This document shows, one piece after another, positions 4,068 to 9,210 of a stretch of 64,000 nt of DNA. Below the pieces are notes generated by a model. The model did not search any database, had not been told where the DNA came from, and worked only from the letters and a program-made list of their open reading frames with translations. Source of the stretch: Marivivens donghaensis (GTDB taxonomy: Bacteria > Pseudomonadota > Alphaproteobacteria > Rhodobacterales > Rhodobacteraceae); the NCBI RefSeq assembly GCF_011806565.1, contig NZ_JAATOP010000004.1, positions 124,001 to 188,000 on the forward strand. Reading direction: 5' to 3'. Numbering within the stretch: the first letter of the stretch is position 1; each line of letters opens with the position of its first letter. The translations under genes and the position numbers were made by a program.

Positions 4068-4589
4068 ATGAGCCTCCATTCCGAACTCGGGGTCCAGAAG
4101 GATAATACCCTTACAAACGCGCAGAATGCGGTTTTCATGAACAATTACCTCGAGGCGCTGACGCTGGTCGAAAGGCTGCACCGTCTGCTCCTCGATGTGA
4201 TCAAGGACGAATTCGAACGCCTCGGCATTATCGAGGTGAACCCCGTCCAAGCTTTGCTGCTTTTCAACGTCGGCACGAACGAAGTCACCGCCGGAGAGCT
4301 GAAATCCCGCGGCTATTACCAAGGCTCCAACGTCAGCTACAATCTCAAGAAGCTCGTAACGCTGGACTATATGCACCACAACAGATGCATGGTCGACCGC
4401 CGCGCGGTTCGGGTGAGCCTGACCGAAAAAGGCCGCCGCATCCACGAAATCGTTGCCAAGCTGTTCGAACGCCATTCGCAGGGTCTACAGGATCGCGGTG
4501 TCGTCAGCCTCGACGGGATGGAGCATATCACCGCTTCGCTGCGCCGCATCGAACGCTACTGGGGCGACCAGATCCGCTACATTTACTGA
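4068..4589 (+). CDS. ldtR: MarR-family winged-helix regulator, LdtR type
   Basis: A 173-residue winged-helix protein. The N-terminal helices (Y-L-E-A-L-T-L-V-E-R-L-H-R) match the LdtR branch of MarR regulators in alphaproteobacteria, which control an L,D-transpeptidase and stress tolerance. The HTH is centred on T-A-G-E-L-K-S-R-G-Y-Y-Q-G-S-N-V (about 72-90) with a wing at M-V-D-R-R-A-V-R-V. An upstream ATG at 4059 is fused to the GAGGAG ribosome site (spacing zero), while the ATG at 4068 sits nine bases beyond it, so I chose 4068. No ldt gene is adjacent. Assignment to LdtR rests on recalled family similarity. Confidence 0.82.
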   Translation: MSLHSELGVQKDNTLTNAQNAVFMNNYLEALTLVERLHRLLLDVIKDEFERLGIIEVNPVQALLLFNVGTNEVTAGELKSRGYYQGSNVSYNLKKLVTLDYMHHNRCMVDRRAVRVSLTEKGRRIHEIVAKLFERHSQGLQDRGVVSLDGMEHITASLRRIERYWGDQIRYIY

Positions 4590-5263
4590 AGCGCGCCCAG
4601 CGCGAGGCTACGGACCTCGCGCAGCAACTTGCGCCGCATGGCTTTCTCGTAGTCTTCGAAACCGCTGGCGGTCTCCACAAACCGCTGCGGCCCGCGGATG
4701 ACGTTTGTTTTCCAGTAACTGATGAGTGCGTCATCGTTATCCGCGCCCAGCACCACGAGCCCGTTCACGGTCATATCGAACCGTTCGGGAATATCCTGAG
4801 GGCGGGGGCCGTTATTGTTCTGCCCGTCGCCCGACAGATCGAGCGTGTGCCGCCAGCACTCGGGCTGCTGATCCATCAGCGCCTCGCCCGTGAGGATGGC
4901 GGCCCCGATGGCCGTGGTCACATCCGACGGTGCGGTGTTGGTGGCCTCCAGCGTCGCGGCAACGTCCGCGATGGCAGCGGCGGAATCCAGTGCGGTCCAC
5001 GGCACAAGCAGCTTCACCGCTTCGGGGCCGCTCCACTGGTAAACCGCGAGCCTGATCGGCGCGATGGTGTCGGATAGAATCGCTTCGCTGACGTCCTGAG
5101 ATGTCAGCGCGCCCGCAAGCCCGTCCAGTTGCAGGCGGTATTCGGACGGGTCCACAGACCCCGATACATCAAGACCGAGCGCCAGCGCTTGCCGGCACTC
5201 GGACAGGGCAGGGGACGCCGCGAATAGCGCGGCGACCAAGGTCAGCTTACCAGTGACCGACAT
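4583..5263 (-). CDS. DUF1194 secreted protein with von Willebrand A-like fold
   Basis: A 226-residue protein with a signal peptide (residues 1-18, ending S-P-A-L-S) predicted to be exported to the periplasm. The mature part carries a VWA-type metal site: D-V-S-G-S-V (about 30-35) matches MIDAS D-x-S-x-S, with a later D-L-S-G-D-G-Q-N-N segment. DUF1194 proteins of this form are common in roseobacters; their role is unknown, perhaps protein binding. The chosen start overlaps the end of gloA by 17 bases. Its own 3' end overlaps the convergent MarR gene by seven bases. Confidence 0.8.
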   Translation of the reverse strand: MSVTGKLTLVAALFAASPALSECRQALALGLDVSGSVDPSEYRLQLDGLAGALTSQDVSEAILSDTIAPIRLAVYQWSGPEAVKLLVPWTALDSAAAIADVAATLEATNTAPSDVTTAIGAAILTGEALMDQQPECWRHTLDLSGDGQNNNGPRPQDIPERFDMTVNGLVVLGADNDDALISYWKTNVIRGPQRFVETASGFEDYEKAMRRKLLREVRSLALGALQ

Positions 5264-5675
5264 TTTCCATGCTTGCCCACGGTTCTGACGGAGCCAGCGA
5301 GTCGCCCGCTTGCAGCAGCTCGATCGAGATATTGTCGGGCGAACGGACGAACGCCATGTGACCGTCGCGCGGCGGGCGGTTGATTGTGACACCGTTGTCC
5401 ATCAGCAGCTGGCAGGTCTCGTAGATGTTGTCCACGCTGTAGGCGAGGTGGCCGAAATGGCGGCTGTCCGAGGGCAGCGCGTCATCGCCGTCCCAGTTAT
5501 AGGTCAGTTCGACAGGGCACTCTTCCTGTCCTTCGGGAGCCATGAAAATAAGGCTGAAGCGGCCGCCTTCGTTGTCGATGCGGCGGGTCTCTTTCAGGCC
5601 GAGCAGTTTGAAAAAGTCCATTGTCTTTTCCAGATCCTTAACGCGGACCATGGTGTGCAGATAGCGAAGGGTCAT
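5247..5675 (-). CDS. gloA: Lactoylglutathione lyase (glyoxalase I)
   Basis: A 142-residue VOC-fold enzyme that isomerises the methylglyoxal-glutathione hemithioacetal to S-lactoylglutathione in the cytoplasm. All four metal ligands of the class are visible: H7, E56, H76 and E119. The spacing and motifs R-V-K-D-L-E-K-T-M-D-F-F and D-x-I-S-I-E-L fit bacterial GloA. A ribosome site (AAGGAA) precedes the ATG at 5675. It is followed, with overlap, by the DUF1194 gene. Confidence 0.93.
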   Translation of the reverse strand: MTLRYLHTMVRVKDLEKTMDFFKLLGLKETRRIDNEGGRFSLIFMAPEGQEECPVELTYNWDGDDALPSDSRHFGHLAYSVDNIYETCQLLMDNGVTINRPPRDGHMAFVRSPDNISIELLQAGDSLAPSEPWASMENVGHW

Positions 5676-5731
5676 TTGAAATTCCTTTCCTTTGCGAGTG
5701 GCAACCTAGCAGGCGATCCACCCTTTGCCAG

Positions 5732-7075
5732 TCAGAAAGAGGACTCGATCCCGACCCCGACGCTCAGCTCTTCGGACCGGTAAAGCGCGACGTTGCTGTC
5801 GTTCCGGCTGGCTTGCAGGTTCAGCACGGGATGGAAGCCGTAGAGGTCCAGCGCAGGCAACCCCGCCGAGACCGTCAGCGTATCGCGGCTGTCATCGCGG
5901 CCATCCGGCGCGAGGAAGTTCGCCCCGTAAGCCCGCCAGTCGTGCCGATAGCTGAACGCGACATCCATGCCTGCGACGGGCTCGCTCAGGTCGAATGCCA
6001 ACCCGACTGCCTGCGCATCGACGCTGCGGGAGGCTGACGACGACACCGTGTCCTTCGCCTCCGCCCAGACGGTAAGGCGCCCCATGTCGGTGGGGTGGCG
6101 GAGCGCGGTGTGCAGGCTCCACGTCGCGGCGTCGATGTCGTCCGACATGTAGGTCGTCCAGTCGCGGCCCAGCTTGGCGGAGACCACGTTTTCGCCGATC
6201 CGCCAGCCGCGCGTCAGCGATACCGACTGGAAGCTGGTGAACGGATCGCCGCCGTAGGTCGAATAGACCAACTTGCCGCCCAGCGTGTAGTCGGCCTGGC
6301 CCAGCCGCCAGCTGTGGATCAGGCTGCCCGACACTTGGCGGTGCGCGTAATCGCTGCCCGATTTGCTCGGCGCTGCGGCCTGCGCTTCGTCCGAGAGGGC
6401 GACCGCCGTGCCGCCGAACGTCAGCTTTGCGGTCGTAGCGCTAGTGCGGTCCGCCTCCAGCCTGTAGCCCAAGCTGACCCGCGCCGAAGCGACCGTGCCT
6501 GAAAGCGCCTGCGCGTCCGCGCTCAGCGGCGCTTCAAACGGCATTCCGGGGATGGCGATGGAGCTTTCGGACGAGCCGTTGTTGACGTTGCTCGACGGGG
6601 AAATCGCGAGGTCCAGTTTCAGCGACAGCGGATTGCGCTGCCTTACAAAGCGGTAGTCCTCGGCCAGTTGATCGACCTTATTTTCAGGTGCCAAAGCCCG
6701 CGCACGCCGCAGCCAGAACTGCGCCCGCGTCGGATGATCCAGCCGCGCATGGGCGAGGGCGATTAGACGTGCGGCCTGAAACCGGACGTCGTCATTCTCG
6801 GACAGCCCGAAAGCGGTGGAGGCATGGTCCAGCGACACCGCGAAATCACCCATGGCCGATGCCGCCTCGGCCCGCAGCAGGTGGGCGGAAATGTCGTCCG
6901 GATCACGCGCCAGCAGCCCCTCTGCCAGCAGCGCCGTATCCTGCGGGTAGCCGTTCGCCAGCGCCTGCGCCGCCAGATCGCGGGCTTCCAGCGGCGAAAG
7001 CGTCTGCTCTGCCGCTGCCAATGGCGCCGCGAACGCAAGGAGCGCCGCTGCGGCAATCGCTGTCTTAGAAGTCAC
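5732..7075 (-). CDS. Surface lipoprotein assembly modifier (Slam)-type outer-membrane protein
   Basis: A 447-residue protein with a Sec signal (cleavage after A-A-A near residue 22), helical TPR-like repeats at about 28-130, then a long beta-rich part (150-447) of alternating hydrophobic strands ending in phenylalanine, as expected for an outer-membrane barrel. This TPR plus DUF560 barrel layout is that of Slam proteins, which move particular lipoproteins across the outer membrane to the cell surface. The gene directly upstream encodes a lipoprotein, and the two overlap by 11 bases. In Neisseria the Slam gene is likewise paired with its client. Confidence 0.8.
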   Translation of the reverse strand: MTSKTAIAAAALLAFAAPLAAAEQTLSPLEARDLAAQALANGYPQDTALLAEGLLARDPDDISAHLLRAEAASAMGDFAVSLDHASTAFGLSENDDVRFQAARLIALAHARLDHPTRAQFWLRRARALAPENKVDQLAEDYRFVRQRNPLSLKLDLAISPSSNVNNGSSESSIAIPGMPFEAPLSADAQALSGTVASARVSLGYRLEADRTSATTAKLTFGGTAVALSDEAQAAAPSKSGSDYAHRQVSGSLIHSWRLGQADYTLGGKLVYSTYGGDPFTSFQSVSLTRGWRIGENVVSAKLGRDWTTYMSDDIDAATWSLHTALRHPTDMGRLTVWAEAKDTVSSSASRSVDAQAVGLAFDLSEPVAGMDVAFSYRHDWRAYGANFLAPDGRDDSRDTLTVSAGLPALDLYGFHPVLNLQASRNDSNVALYRSEELSVGVGIESSF

Positions 7076-8087
7076 GGTAAACGATGAAACCGCCGGTTTC
7101 CTGCCAACCGATATCGAGGTTGCCCGAGTTCTCGACGACCAGCACGCCGACGATCTCGCCGCCGTCGTTCGGGTCGGTCGTGTCTCCCGCCATGATGGCG
7201 TAGTATGTGCCTTCCTCGTAGGTCTCGCCGTCGACGGCGTTGATCACGGTACCCATGACCTCGCCGTTGGAGTCCATGGTCACATCGGTTGCGATCACGC
7301 GGTAGAAGTCCGGCATCTCGATGTCGGTGACGATATCGCCGTTTTCGTCGAACGCTTCGCGGTTCGTCACGGTCAGACCCACCGTCGGGCCTTCACCAAA
7401 GCCTTCGAAGTCGATCGAGACCTGTGCATCGGCGCGGGTGTAGTTGATGCCGGTGGTACCGTCGAACACGCGCACGCCGCCGTAGTTACCGTTGAACACA
7501 GCCTGACCGTCAGTCGGGATGACCACTGCGCCTTCGCGTTGATAGACAAAGCCGCCGAAACCGTAGCCCATGTACCCGCCCGTCCGCACGATCGCGAACG
7601 AAGTCCGCGGGCGGTCGTTGGCGGTGTTCTGGGACATGCCGACCACAGCGCGATAGCGGCTGATCTGCGTCACGTCATCGCCGGTGATATCGTCGGTCAC
7701 CGTGGTATCGGCCTCGTAGATGGCGTAGCCGCCGATCGTACCGATGGCGGTGTTGCGCTCGTAAATATCGTCGCCGTCAAAGGCGAGGCCGCGCACCGTC
7801 AGCTCGTCCTTATCAGCGTCATAGCTGAAGTTGCGGGCATGGCCGCCGGTGCCGCTTTCGCTGTCCTGCGCTTCATAGCGGAAAATGCGGTATTCGGCCG
7901 TCGGTTCTTCGGTGCCCGGGGGCAGGGAGGTGCCGTCGGTCTCGAGCCCGCCTTCTTCCTCGGTTTCTTCGACGACCTCTTCAACGGGTTCTTCTACGAC
8001 TTCTTCTTCAACCTCGAACAAGGGCTGACCGCCCCCACATGCAGAGAGGAGCGCAAGAAATGCGCAAGTCGTGAGAAAGCGGGACAT
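7065..8087 (-). CDS. Lipoprotein, probable surface-exposed client of the adjacent Slam
   Basis: A 340-residue lipoprotein: signal M-S-R-F-L-T-T-C-A-F-L-A-L-L-S-A-C gives lipobox L-S-A-C with acylated C17. A glutamate-rich spacer (about 24-45) follows, then a glycine- and beta-rich body, ending G-G-F-I-V-Y-R-D-F. The plan (lipid anchor, flexible acidic linker, C-terminal beta-barrel-like domain) resembles TbpB/HpuA/fHbp-type Slam substrates, though I cannot name a ligand. The start at 8087 is preferred over an upstream in-frame ATG because it gives a proper lipoprotein signal. It overlaps the slam gene by 11 bases. Confidence 0.75.
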   Translation of the reverse strand: MSRFLTTCAFLALLSACGGGQPLFEVEEEVVEEPVEEVVEETEEEGGLETDGTSLPPGTEEPTAEYRIFRYEAQDSESGTGGHARNFSYDADKDELTVRGLAFDGDDIYERNTAIGTIGGYAIYEADTTVTDDITGDDVTQISRYRAVVGMSQNTANDRPRTSFAIVRTGGYMGYGFGGFVYQREGAVVIPTDGQAVFNGNYGGVRVFDGTTGINYTRADAQVSIDFEGFGEGPTVGLTVTNREAFDENGDIVTDIEMPDFYRVIATDVTMDSNGEVMGTVINAVDGETYEEGTYYAIMAGDTTDPNDGGEIVGVLVVENSGNLDIGWQETGGFIVYRDF

Positions 8088-8228
8088 GGCCGGACCTGTA
8101 TGTTTTTGTTTGGCTGCTCTTTTCCAAGACAATCATCGTGGAACGTCAGTTCTGTCAACCGTAACGGATAGCGTTGTTATCTGATTGTATCAAAGCAGCC
8201 ACGCGAAAGGGGTATCTGGCTAATTGCC

Positions 8229-8261
8229 GCGAAGGGCCCGAAGACAGTTGTCGCCCTTCGC
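8229..8261. repeat. Inverted repeat in the thyX leader
   Basis: Arms GCGAAGGG (8229-8236) and CCCTTCGC (8254-8261) are separated by 17 bases. The hairpin lies about 40 bases ahead of the thyX start in the 214-bp divergent gap. It lacks a T-run, so it is more likely an mRNA leader structure or protein-binding site than a terminator. Confidence 0.35.
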
Positions 8262-8301
8262 CTTTGAAGGTTAAAAAGCCTGCGAAGCCAGAGGAGTCAT
8301 C

Positions 8302-9210
8302 ATGCCCATTACGCCCGAACAGGAAGCCGAAGTCGCCGAACTGCGCGCCGAAACCCGTCAGACGCTCCGCGCCGTGTCGGAGGGCATGGAAAAGCACCTC
8401 TACACCATCAAGCCGGTGCTCGATCACGGTTTCATCCGCGTCGTTGACTACATGGGCGACGATGCCGCGATCTGTCAGGCGGCCCGCGTGTCCTATGGCC
8501 GTGGCACCAAGTCGGTGAAAAACGACGAGGGCCTGATCCGCTACCTGATGCGTCACTGGCACTCCAGCCCGTTCGAGATGTGCGAGATCAAACTCCACGT
8601 CAAACTGCCCGTTTTCGTGGCCCGCCAGTGGATCCGTCACCGCACCGCGAACGTGAATGAATACTCGGGCCGTTACTCGATCCTCGACCGTGAGTTCTAC
8701 ATCCCGCAGCCCGAAGTGCTCGCCGCGCAGTCGGTCGTGAACAATCAGGGCCGCGGTGAAGTGCTGCAAGGCGAAGAGGCAGAGCGCGTGCTCGAATACC
8801 TCAAGGCCGACGCCGCCCGCGCCTACGACCACTACGAAGAGATGATCAGTCAGAACGGCCAGCAGGGCCTCGCCCGCGAACTGGCCCGCATGAACCTGCC
8901 CGCGAACATCTATACCCAGTGGTACTGGAAGGTGGACCTGCACAACCTGCTGCACTTCCTGCGCCTGCGCGCAGACAGCCACGCCCAGTACGAAATCCGC
9001 GTCTATGCCGAAGAGCTGTGCAAAGTGGTCGCCGACTGGGTGCCCGCAGCTTATGGCGCGTTCGAAGACTACCGCATGGGCGGCGCGACCCTGTCCGAAA
9101 AGGCGCTGGGCTGCATTCGTGCGATGCTGAAAGGCGAAGAGGTCACGCAGGAAACCAGCGGCATGTCCGTCGGCGAATGGCGTGAGTTCCAGCAAGTGCT
9201 GGAAGGCTGA
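8302..9210 (+). CDS. thyX: FAD-dependent thymidylate synthase
   Basis: A 302-residue ThyX, which makes dTMP from dUMP using methylenetetrahydrofolate, NADPH and FAD. The signature R-H-R-x7-S (here R112[14 protein letters not shown]126) is complete and carries the FAD/dUMP-binding arginines and histidine. An in-frame N-terminal ~35-residue extension before the core is usual in alphaproteobacteria. The start has GGAG upstream (8291-8294). No thyA is seen in the window. Stand-alone transcription unit. Confidence 0.95.

Follow-up and report, generated by a model that had tools for sequence, protein, structure and literature searches.

A 2017 study reported homologues of Slam, the outer-membrane translocon of type XI secretion systems (T11SS), from every clade of the Proteobacteria (PMC5449769). 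Slam1 of Neisseria meningitidis consists of a TPR N-terminal domain followed by a 14-stranded DUF560 barrel, and the fold described for Slam clients combines a handle domain with a barrel (PMC5449769). Closest to the system treated here is a syntenic locus found in 11 marine Roseobacteraceae/Rhodobacteraceae (Grossman et al. 2025, Fig. 8; PMC12282271), which encodes ThyX, a cargo lipoprotein, a cluster 3 T11SS outer-membrane protein (OMP), a glyoxalase and a DUF1194 protein, the predicted cargo being 282-375 amino acids in length with a C-terminal eight-stranded barrel in all but one case. In the same study DUF1194 was found beside cluster 3 OMPs in 102 of 145 cases, the discussion treated the neighbouring genes as potential partners in function and the locus as being in transition, and no experimentally verified cluster 3 system was reported (PMC12282271).

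The window, i.e. the whole 64,000-nucleotide stretch of Marivivens donghaensis DNA analysed here, corresponds to this published marine cluster 3 locus gene for gene, in the order ThyX, cargo, OMP, glyoxalase and DUF1194 (Table 1). Aspartate aminotransferase, an HTH regulator, a cold-shock protein and threonyl-tRNA synthetase, all reported to co-occur with the published locus, are also found here, and the further neighbours of the pair include a MarR-type regulator, Sdh5, an HTH protein and an aminotransferase. The first-pass annotation had proposed a Slam-type pair and presented it as unexpected in an alphaproteobacterium; the pairing itself is upheld by family profiles in relatives and by both predicted folds, but the implied novelty is not (PMC5449769, PMC12282271). 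Its reading of the lipoprotein as a lipobox, an acidic spacer and a beta-rich body was borne out (LSA-C17, an E/V-rich tether and modelled strands, respectively), as was the 11-base overlap of the two genes. The Slam-lipoprotein pair of marine Rhodobacteraceae is already published, and what is new is evidence for its joint loss and replacement at one fixed chromosomal spot.

Table 1. Features of the cargo-translocon locus, in positions of the 64,000-nucleotide window.
Feature	Position	Strand	Remarks
DUF1194 gene (vWA-like, DVSGS MIDAS motif)	4583..5263	-	Pfam DUF1194 3.7e-63; frequent neighbour
Glyoxalase-family protein gene	5247..5675	-	Pfam Glyoxalase 3.3e-17; fixed left flank
Putative exchanged block	5690..8287	.	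No DNA alignment to four of five ThyX-keeping congeners; flanks align on both sides
Probable Slam/type XI secretion outer-membrane translocon (OMP) gene	5732..7075	-	447 aa; GTG start at 7075
14-stranded barrel domain of the OMP, residues 150-445	5741..6628	-	14 long strands in model
Periplasmic TPR domain of the OMP, residues 28-147	6635..6994	-	Seven helices in model; TPR folds Z 18-20
Overlap (11 bases) of the cargo stop with the translocon GTG start	7065..7075	-	
Cargo lipoprotein gene	7065..8087	-	340 aa; predicted Slam-dependent surface lipoprotein; protein begins MSRFLTTCAFLALLSAC
C-terminal eight-stranded barrel of the cargo, residues 178-338	7074..7556	-	AF2 strands; part common to Slam clients
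Handle domain of the cargo, residues 58-177	7557..7916	-	AF2 strands; beta-rich, putative ligand-binding part
Tether of the cargo, residues 18-57	7917..8036	-	Acidic E/V-rich linker modelled at low confidence, preceded by a GGGQPLF motif
Lipoprotein signal peptide and lipobox, residues 1-17 (LLSAC17)	8037..8087	-	From sequence; C17 invariant in 44-row alignment, which is partly built in as relatives were picked by having a lipobox
ThyX (flavin-dependent thymidylate synthase) gene	8302..9210	+	Pfam Thy1 1.6e-57; fixed right flank

Judged from sequence, the cargo and barrel genes are real and not chance open reading frames. Homologues of the barrel protein occur in 79 of 149 genomes of the family, an open reading frame with a lipobox lies directly upstream of the barrel gene and in the same orientation in 28 of the 29 relatives inspected, and the sister species (G149) carries both genes in an identical arrangement, each at ~91% amino acid identity.

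Structure prediction was run on both proteins and gave TPR helices joined to a 14-stranded barrel for the one (AlphaFold2, pLDDT 94.5) and a handle with an eight-stranded barrel for the other. The barrel domain of the former matched 14-stranded porin-like barrels (CymA, Z 21.8; OmpG, Z 20.5); the matches to the OMP were thus to generic 14-stranded barrels and TPRs, no solved Slam structure being among them. Against the Pfam SlipAM/DUF560 profile (PF04575) the window protein scored 16.6 bits over its last 79 residues, below the curated cut-off of 22, and we assign it to DUF560 because its relatives match the profile (22 of 30 aligned homologues at E<=0.01, best 1.7e-10) and the fold fits. The first-pass annotation had let its reading stand or fall with this domain, which is accordingly present at the level of the family. 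TPR Pfam matches were also found in relatives of the barrel protein. Over-threshold SlipAM members were detected in 37 of 100 family genomes, partly at the same places as the barrel-protein homologues; a SlipAM search of the genome itself missed the window gene, so that the lack of any match in the 14 control genomes is uninformative.

Among the top Foldseek matches of the whole barrel protein were BcsC and PelB, which likewise join TPRs to an outer-membrane barrel, so that the protein might be taken for a polysaccharide exporter of this type and the lipoprotein for an unrelated periplasmic accessory. Such exporters have a long TPR superhelix, a 16-stranded barrel and a linked synthase, whereas the window protein combines a barrel of 14 strands with a TPR domain that is short, its family matches SlipAM, its partner has the fold of a Slam client and no polysaccharide synthase was present among the neighbours tested. 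We regard an exporter as extremely improbable.

The AlphaFold2 model of the cargo (pLDDT 84.8) comprises a disordered acidic tether, a beta-rich handle and eight strands between residues 178 and 338, with an E/V-rich acidic stretch at about residues 25-49 and pLDDT values <50 at residues 27-49. Its best solved match was fHbp (Z 15.0, rmsd 2.6 over 168 residues), other solved matches being hemophilins (Z ~13) and TbpB (Z ~11), and in structural alignments the cargo aligned with the handle and the barrel of both fHbp and hemophilin. The C-terminal barrel of the cargo matched that of fHbp (4ayn) with a Z of 11.0 (rmsd 2.4 over 112 residues). No Pfam or NCBIfam family matched the window cargo when searched alone, and direct PDB sequence searches with each single protein as query found nothing useful. 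Its aligned homologues (44 in total) did match, mostly weakly, the NCBIfam family NF041636 'Slam-dependent surface lipoprotein' (slam_lipo; 16 homologues, best 2.1e-6), FHBP_C (11) and TbpB_B_D (10). Close after the lipid-anchored Cys (within ~12 residues) an [NQ]P[FLVW] motif occurs in 34 of 49 cargos, here as CGGGQPLF, and possibly represents a candidate sorting or surface-retention signal.

The pair shares with Neisseria Slam1/Slam2 and their clients TbpB, fHbp and HpuA a translocon built of TPRs and a 14-stranded barrel (probably DUF560 in the window protein), and a lipobox-bearing client built of a handle and an eight-stranded barrel, although the cargo is remote from the Neisseria clients in sequence (~10-17% identity to fHbp and TbpB in structural alignments). 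Unlike in the Neisseria systems, no TonB receptor gene was recognised in the immediate neighbourhood of the pair. The genome encodes two TonB-dependent receptors, both on other contigs, and the pair may thus be linked to nutrient uptake. Hemophilin (HphA) and its Slam form a second comparable system, the modelled cargo being similar in fold to hemophilin over ~200 residues (Z ~13) and, like it, a client with a single lobe. Hemophilin is a secreted haemophore, whereas the window cargo has a lipobox.

On the strength of the family profile matches, both folds, the likeness of the lipoprotein to fHbp and hemophilin, the match to the published locus and the coupling of the two genes described below, we consider it very probable that the two genes form a Slam (type XI secretion) module, the barrel protein carrying its partner lipoprotein to the cell surface. 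Reconstituted Slam1 provides the model for such a route (PMC9090332). The lipoprotein would be made with a type II signal, exported by Sec and lipidated at Cys17, then released by the Lol system and kept unfolded in the periplasm by Skp (an OmpH/Skp gene is present in the genome). The TPR domain of the barrel protein would recognise it and the 14-stranded barrel would pass it to the surface, where it would fold and stay lipid-anchored on its acidic flexible tether, displaying the handle and the eight-stranded barrel for a putative ligand. Translocation, surface location and ligand binding are all expected here by analogy with characterised Slams.

Relatives of the locus were collected via ThyX, because a search of genome contigs with the barrel protein yielded no relatives and alignment A1 proved too diverse for use as a query, and each of the 80 named loci with an adjacent ThyX was scored for the partner genes. 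Cargo and OMP were both present in 51 loci and both absent from 22, with only the OMP in five and only the cargo in two (Fisher p 7e-13, kinship ignored). In contrasts on the ThyX tree the two genes changed alike in ~4 of 5 independent pairs and never in opposition, although such pairs are few. The spacing between ThyX and glyoxalase is ~2.5-2.8 kb in loci with both genes, but does not exceed 700 bases in 19 of the 22 loci lacking both, most of these having 93-277 bases. These pair-less loci are empty or emptied sites, the direction of change being possible either way. Since ThyX and glyoxalase remain next to each other in loci that lack the pair, they look like fixed neighbours, and their published co-occurrence with T11SS looks positional and need not be functional.

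The two proteins also diverge together. Pairwise distances of cargo and OMP were correlated (r 0.69; permuted maximum 0.18), whereas the respective correlations with ThyX distances were 0.04 and 0.16, and the partial correlation was 0.695 given ThyX and 0.63 given five flanking genes (0.64 for the TPR domain and 0.54 for the OMP barrel). Within class 2 of the pairs the correlation was 0.67, a value reached in 0 of 2000 permutations; within class 1 it was weak (0.26). Such co-divergence is what client recognition through the periplasmic domain would be expected to leave, but two neighbouring genes inherited as one block would yield an identical pattern.

The frequency of DUF1194 beside cluster 3 OMPs raises the alternative that the system has diverged, the translocon serving another client, e.g. 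DUF1194, and the lipoprotein being a vestige. DUF1194 was found in 35 of the 45 full-length loci that have both genes and in 9 of the 22 that lack the pair (Fisher p 0.016), and the five loci that retain an OMP without cargo point the same way, though they also count against the Slam-pair reading. Pairing on the tree removed the association of DUF1194 with the pair, leaving none that is phylogenetically independent, and DUF1194 persists in loci without an OMP; the cargo, in turn, follows the OMP in both presence and divergence. A change of client thus seems very unlikely to us, and we retain the lipoprotein as the cargo of its adjacent translocon. Widely reported neighbours, then, need not be functional partners, as illustrated by ThyX and glyoxalase, which are adjacent without the pair, and by DUF1194, which has no phylogeny-corrected link to it.

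Within the genus Marivivens there is evidence, from sequence comparison, that the pair has been replaced as a block while its flanks remained homologous. The DNA alignment of the window with four of the five ThyX-keeping congeners ends at about 5666-5689 and resumes at 8288-8302 (in G151 the left-flank alignment comprises 4585 plus 5247-5666), whereas the sister species aligns throughout at 93%. The class to which the window cargo belongs is common to relatives in Oceanicola, Limimaricola and Loktanella (42-47% identity), and four congeners carry another cargo class, with ~23% identity to the window cargo in the two that were aligned. The window OMP is 29-30% identical to those of congeners and 31-33% identical to those of other genera. 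Five flanking genes group the six Marivivens rows in one clade (97% support), yet monophyly of these six rows was rejected for both the cargo (AU p 3.2e-4) and the OMP (p 2.5e-4), in tests for which the group was chosen once the difference in identity was known and which involved long branches and quick tree searches. A seven-row test had given p 1.1e-5 for the cargo and 8.6e-5 for the OMP, and G152 was dropped from the second, six-row test because its flanking genes place it apart from the other congeners.

Very fast evolution of the pair in place, with no exchange between lineages, would account for an OMP about equally far from congeners and from other genera and for the long branches in the OMP tree; it bears on the history of the pair and not on its Slam identity. 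The closeness of the cargo to other genera rather than to congeners, together with the rejection of congener monophyly for both proteins, renders it rather unlikely, and replacement is the history that we prefer. In contrast to the published view of the neighbours (PMC12282271), ThyX and glyoxalase are here adjacent without the pair, and the pair appears to be replaced as a unit. A broader proposal, to which we would give somewhat less than an even chance, is that the ThyX-glyoxalase gap of marine Rhodobacterales serves as a site of exchange, where recombination in the conserved flanks swaps cargo and translocon as a matched unit, the two being locked together by recognition. With phages, grazers or changing ligands as the driving force, this would give free-living bacteria a form of surface variation similar to the exchange of antigens by pathogens. 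Our literature search, with most subscription journals outside its reach, found no paper on the exchange of such cargo-translocon pairs. Fold, family profiles and co-divergence lend independent support to a marine type XI system described until now by bioinformatics, and the naturally matched cargo-translocon pairs, which number in the dozens and fall into two or three classes, offer material for the study of Slam-client specificity.

Several loci depart from the complete arrangement. An orphan cargo-like gene (L046:4875-5912; ...VASFGGVAGTNPF...) occurs at a site with no OMP and has its lipobox Cys missing; lipidation may have been lost along with the translocon, or the metagenome-assembled genome may contain an assembly error. 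Partial cargo and partial OMP sequences share one shortened frame at the slot in L080 (4571-5752), and L061 (4968-5735) retains no more than a fragment of an OMP, remnants which suggest in-place decay of the pair. The OMP adjoins ThyX with no recognisable cargo nearby in L035, L036 and L050 (Yoonia or near) and in L038 (Silicimonas), and a search elsewhere in the OMP-only genomes gave nothing beyond two weak cargo-like matches (L117 and L118). Congener G152 (L116) has no ThyX match, yet retains cargo, OMP and glyoxalase in unchanged order. The glyoxalase and DUF1194 genes of the window share 17 bases (5247-5263) and may also be translationally coupled. Finally, the acidic E/V tether (7940-8012) is not of the same length in the window cargo, which comprises 340 amino acids, and in that of the sister species, which comprises 348.
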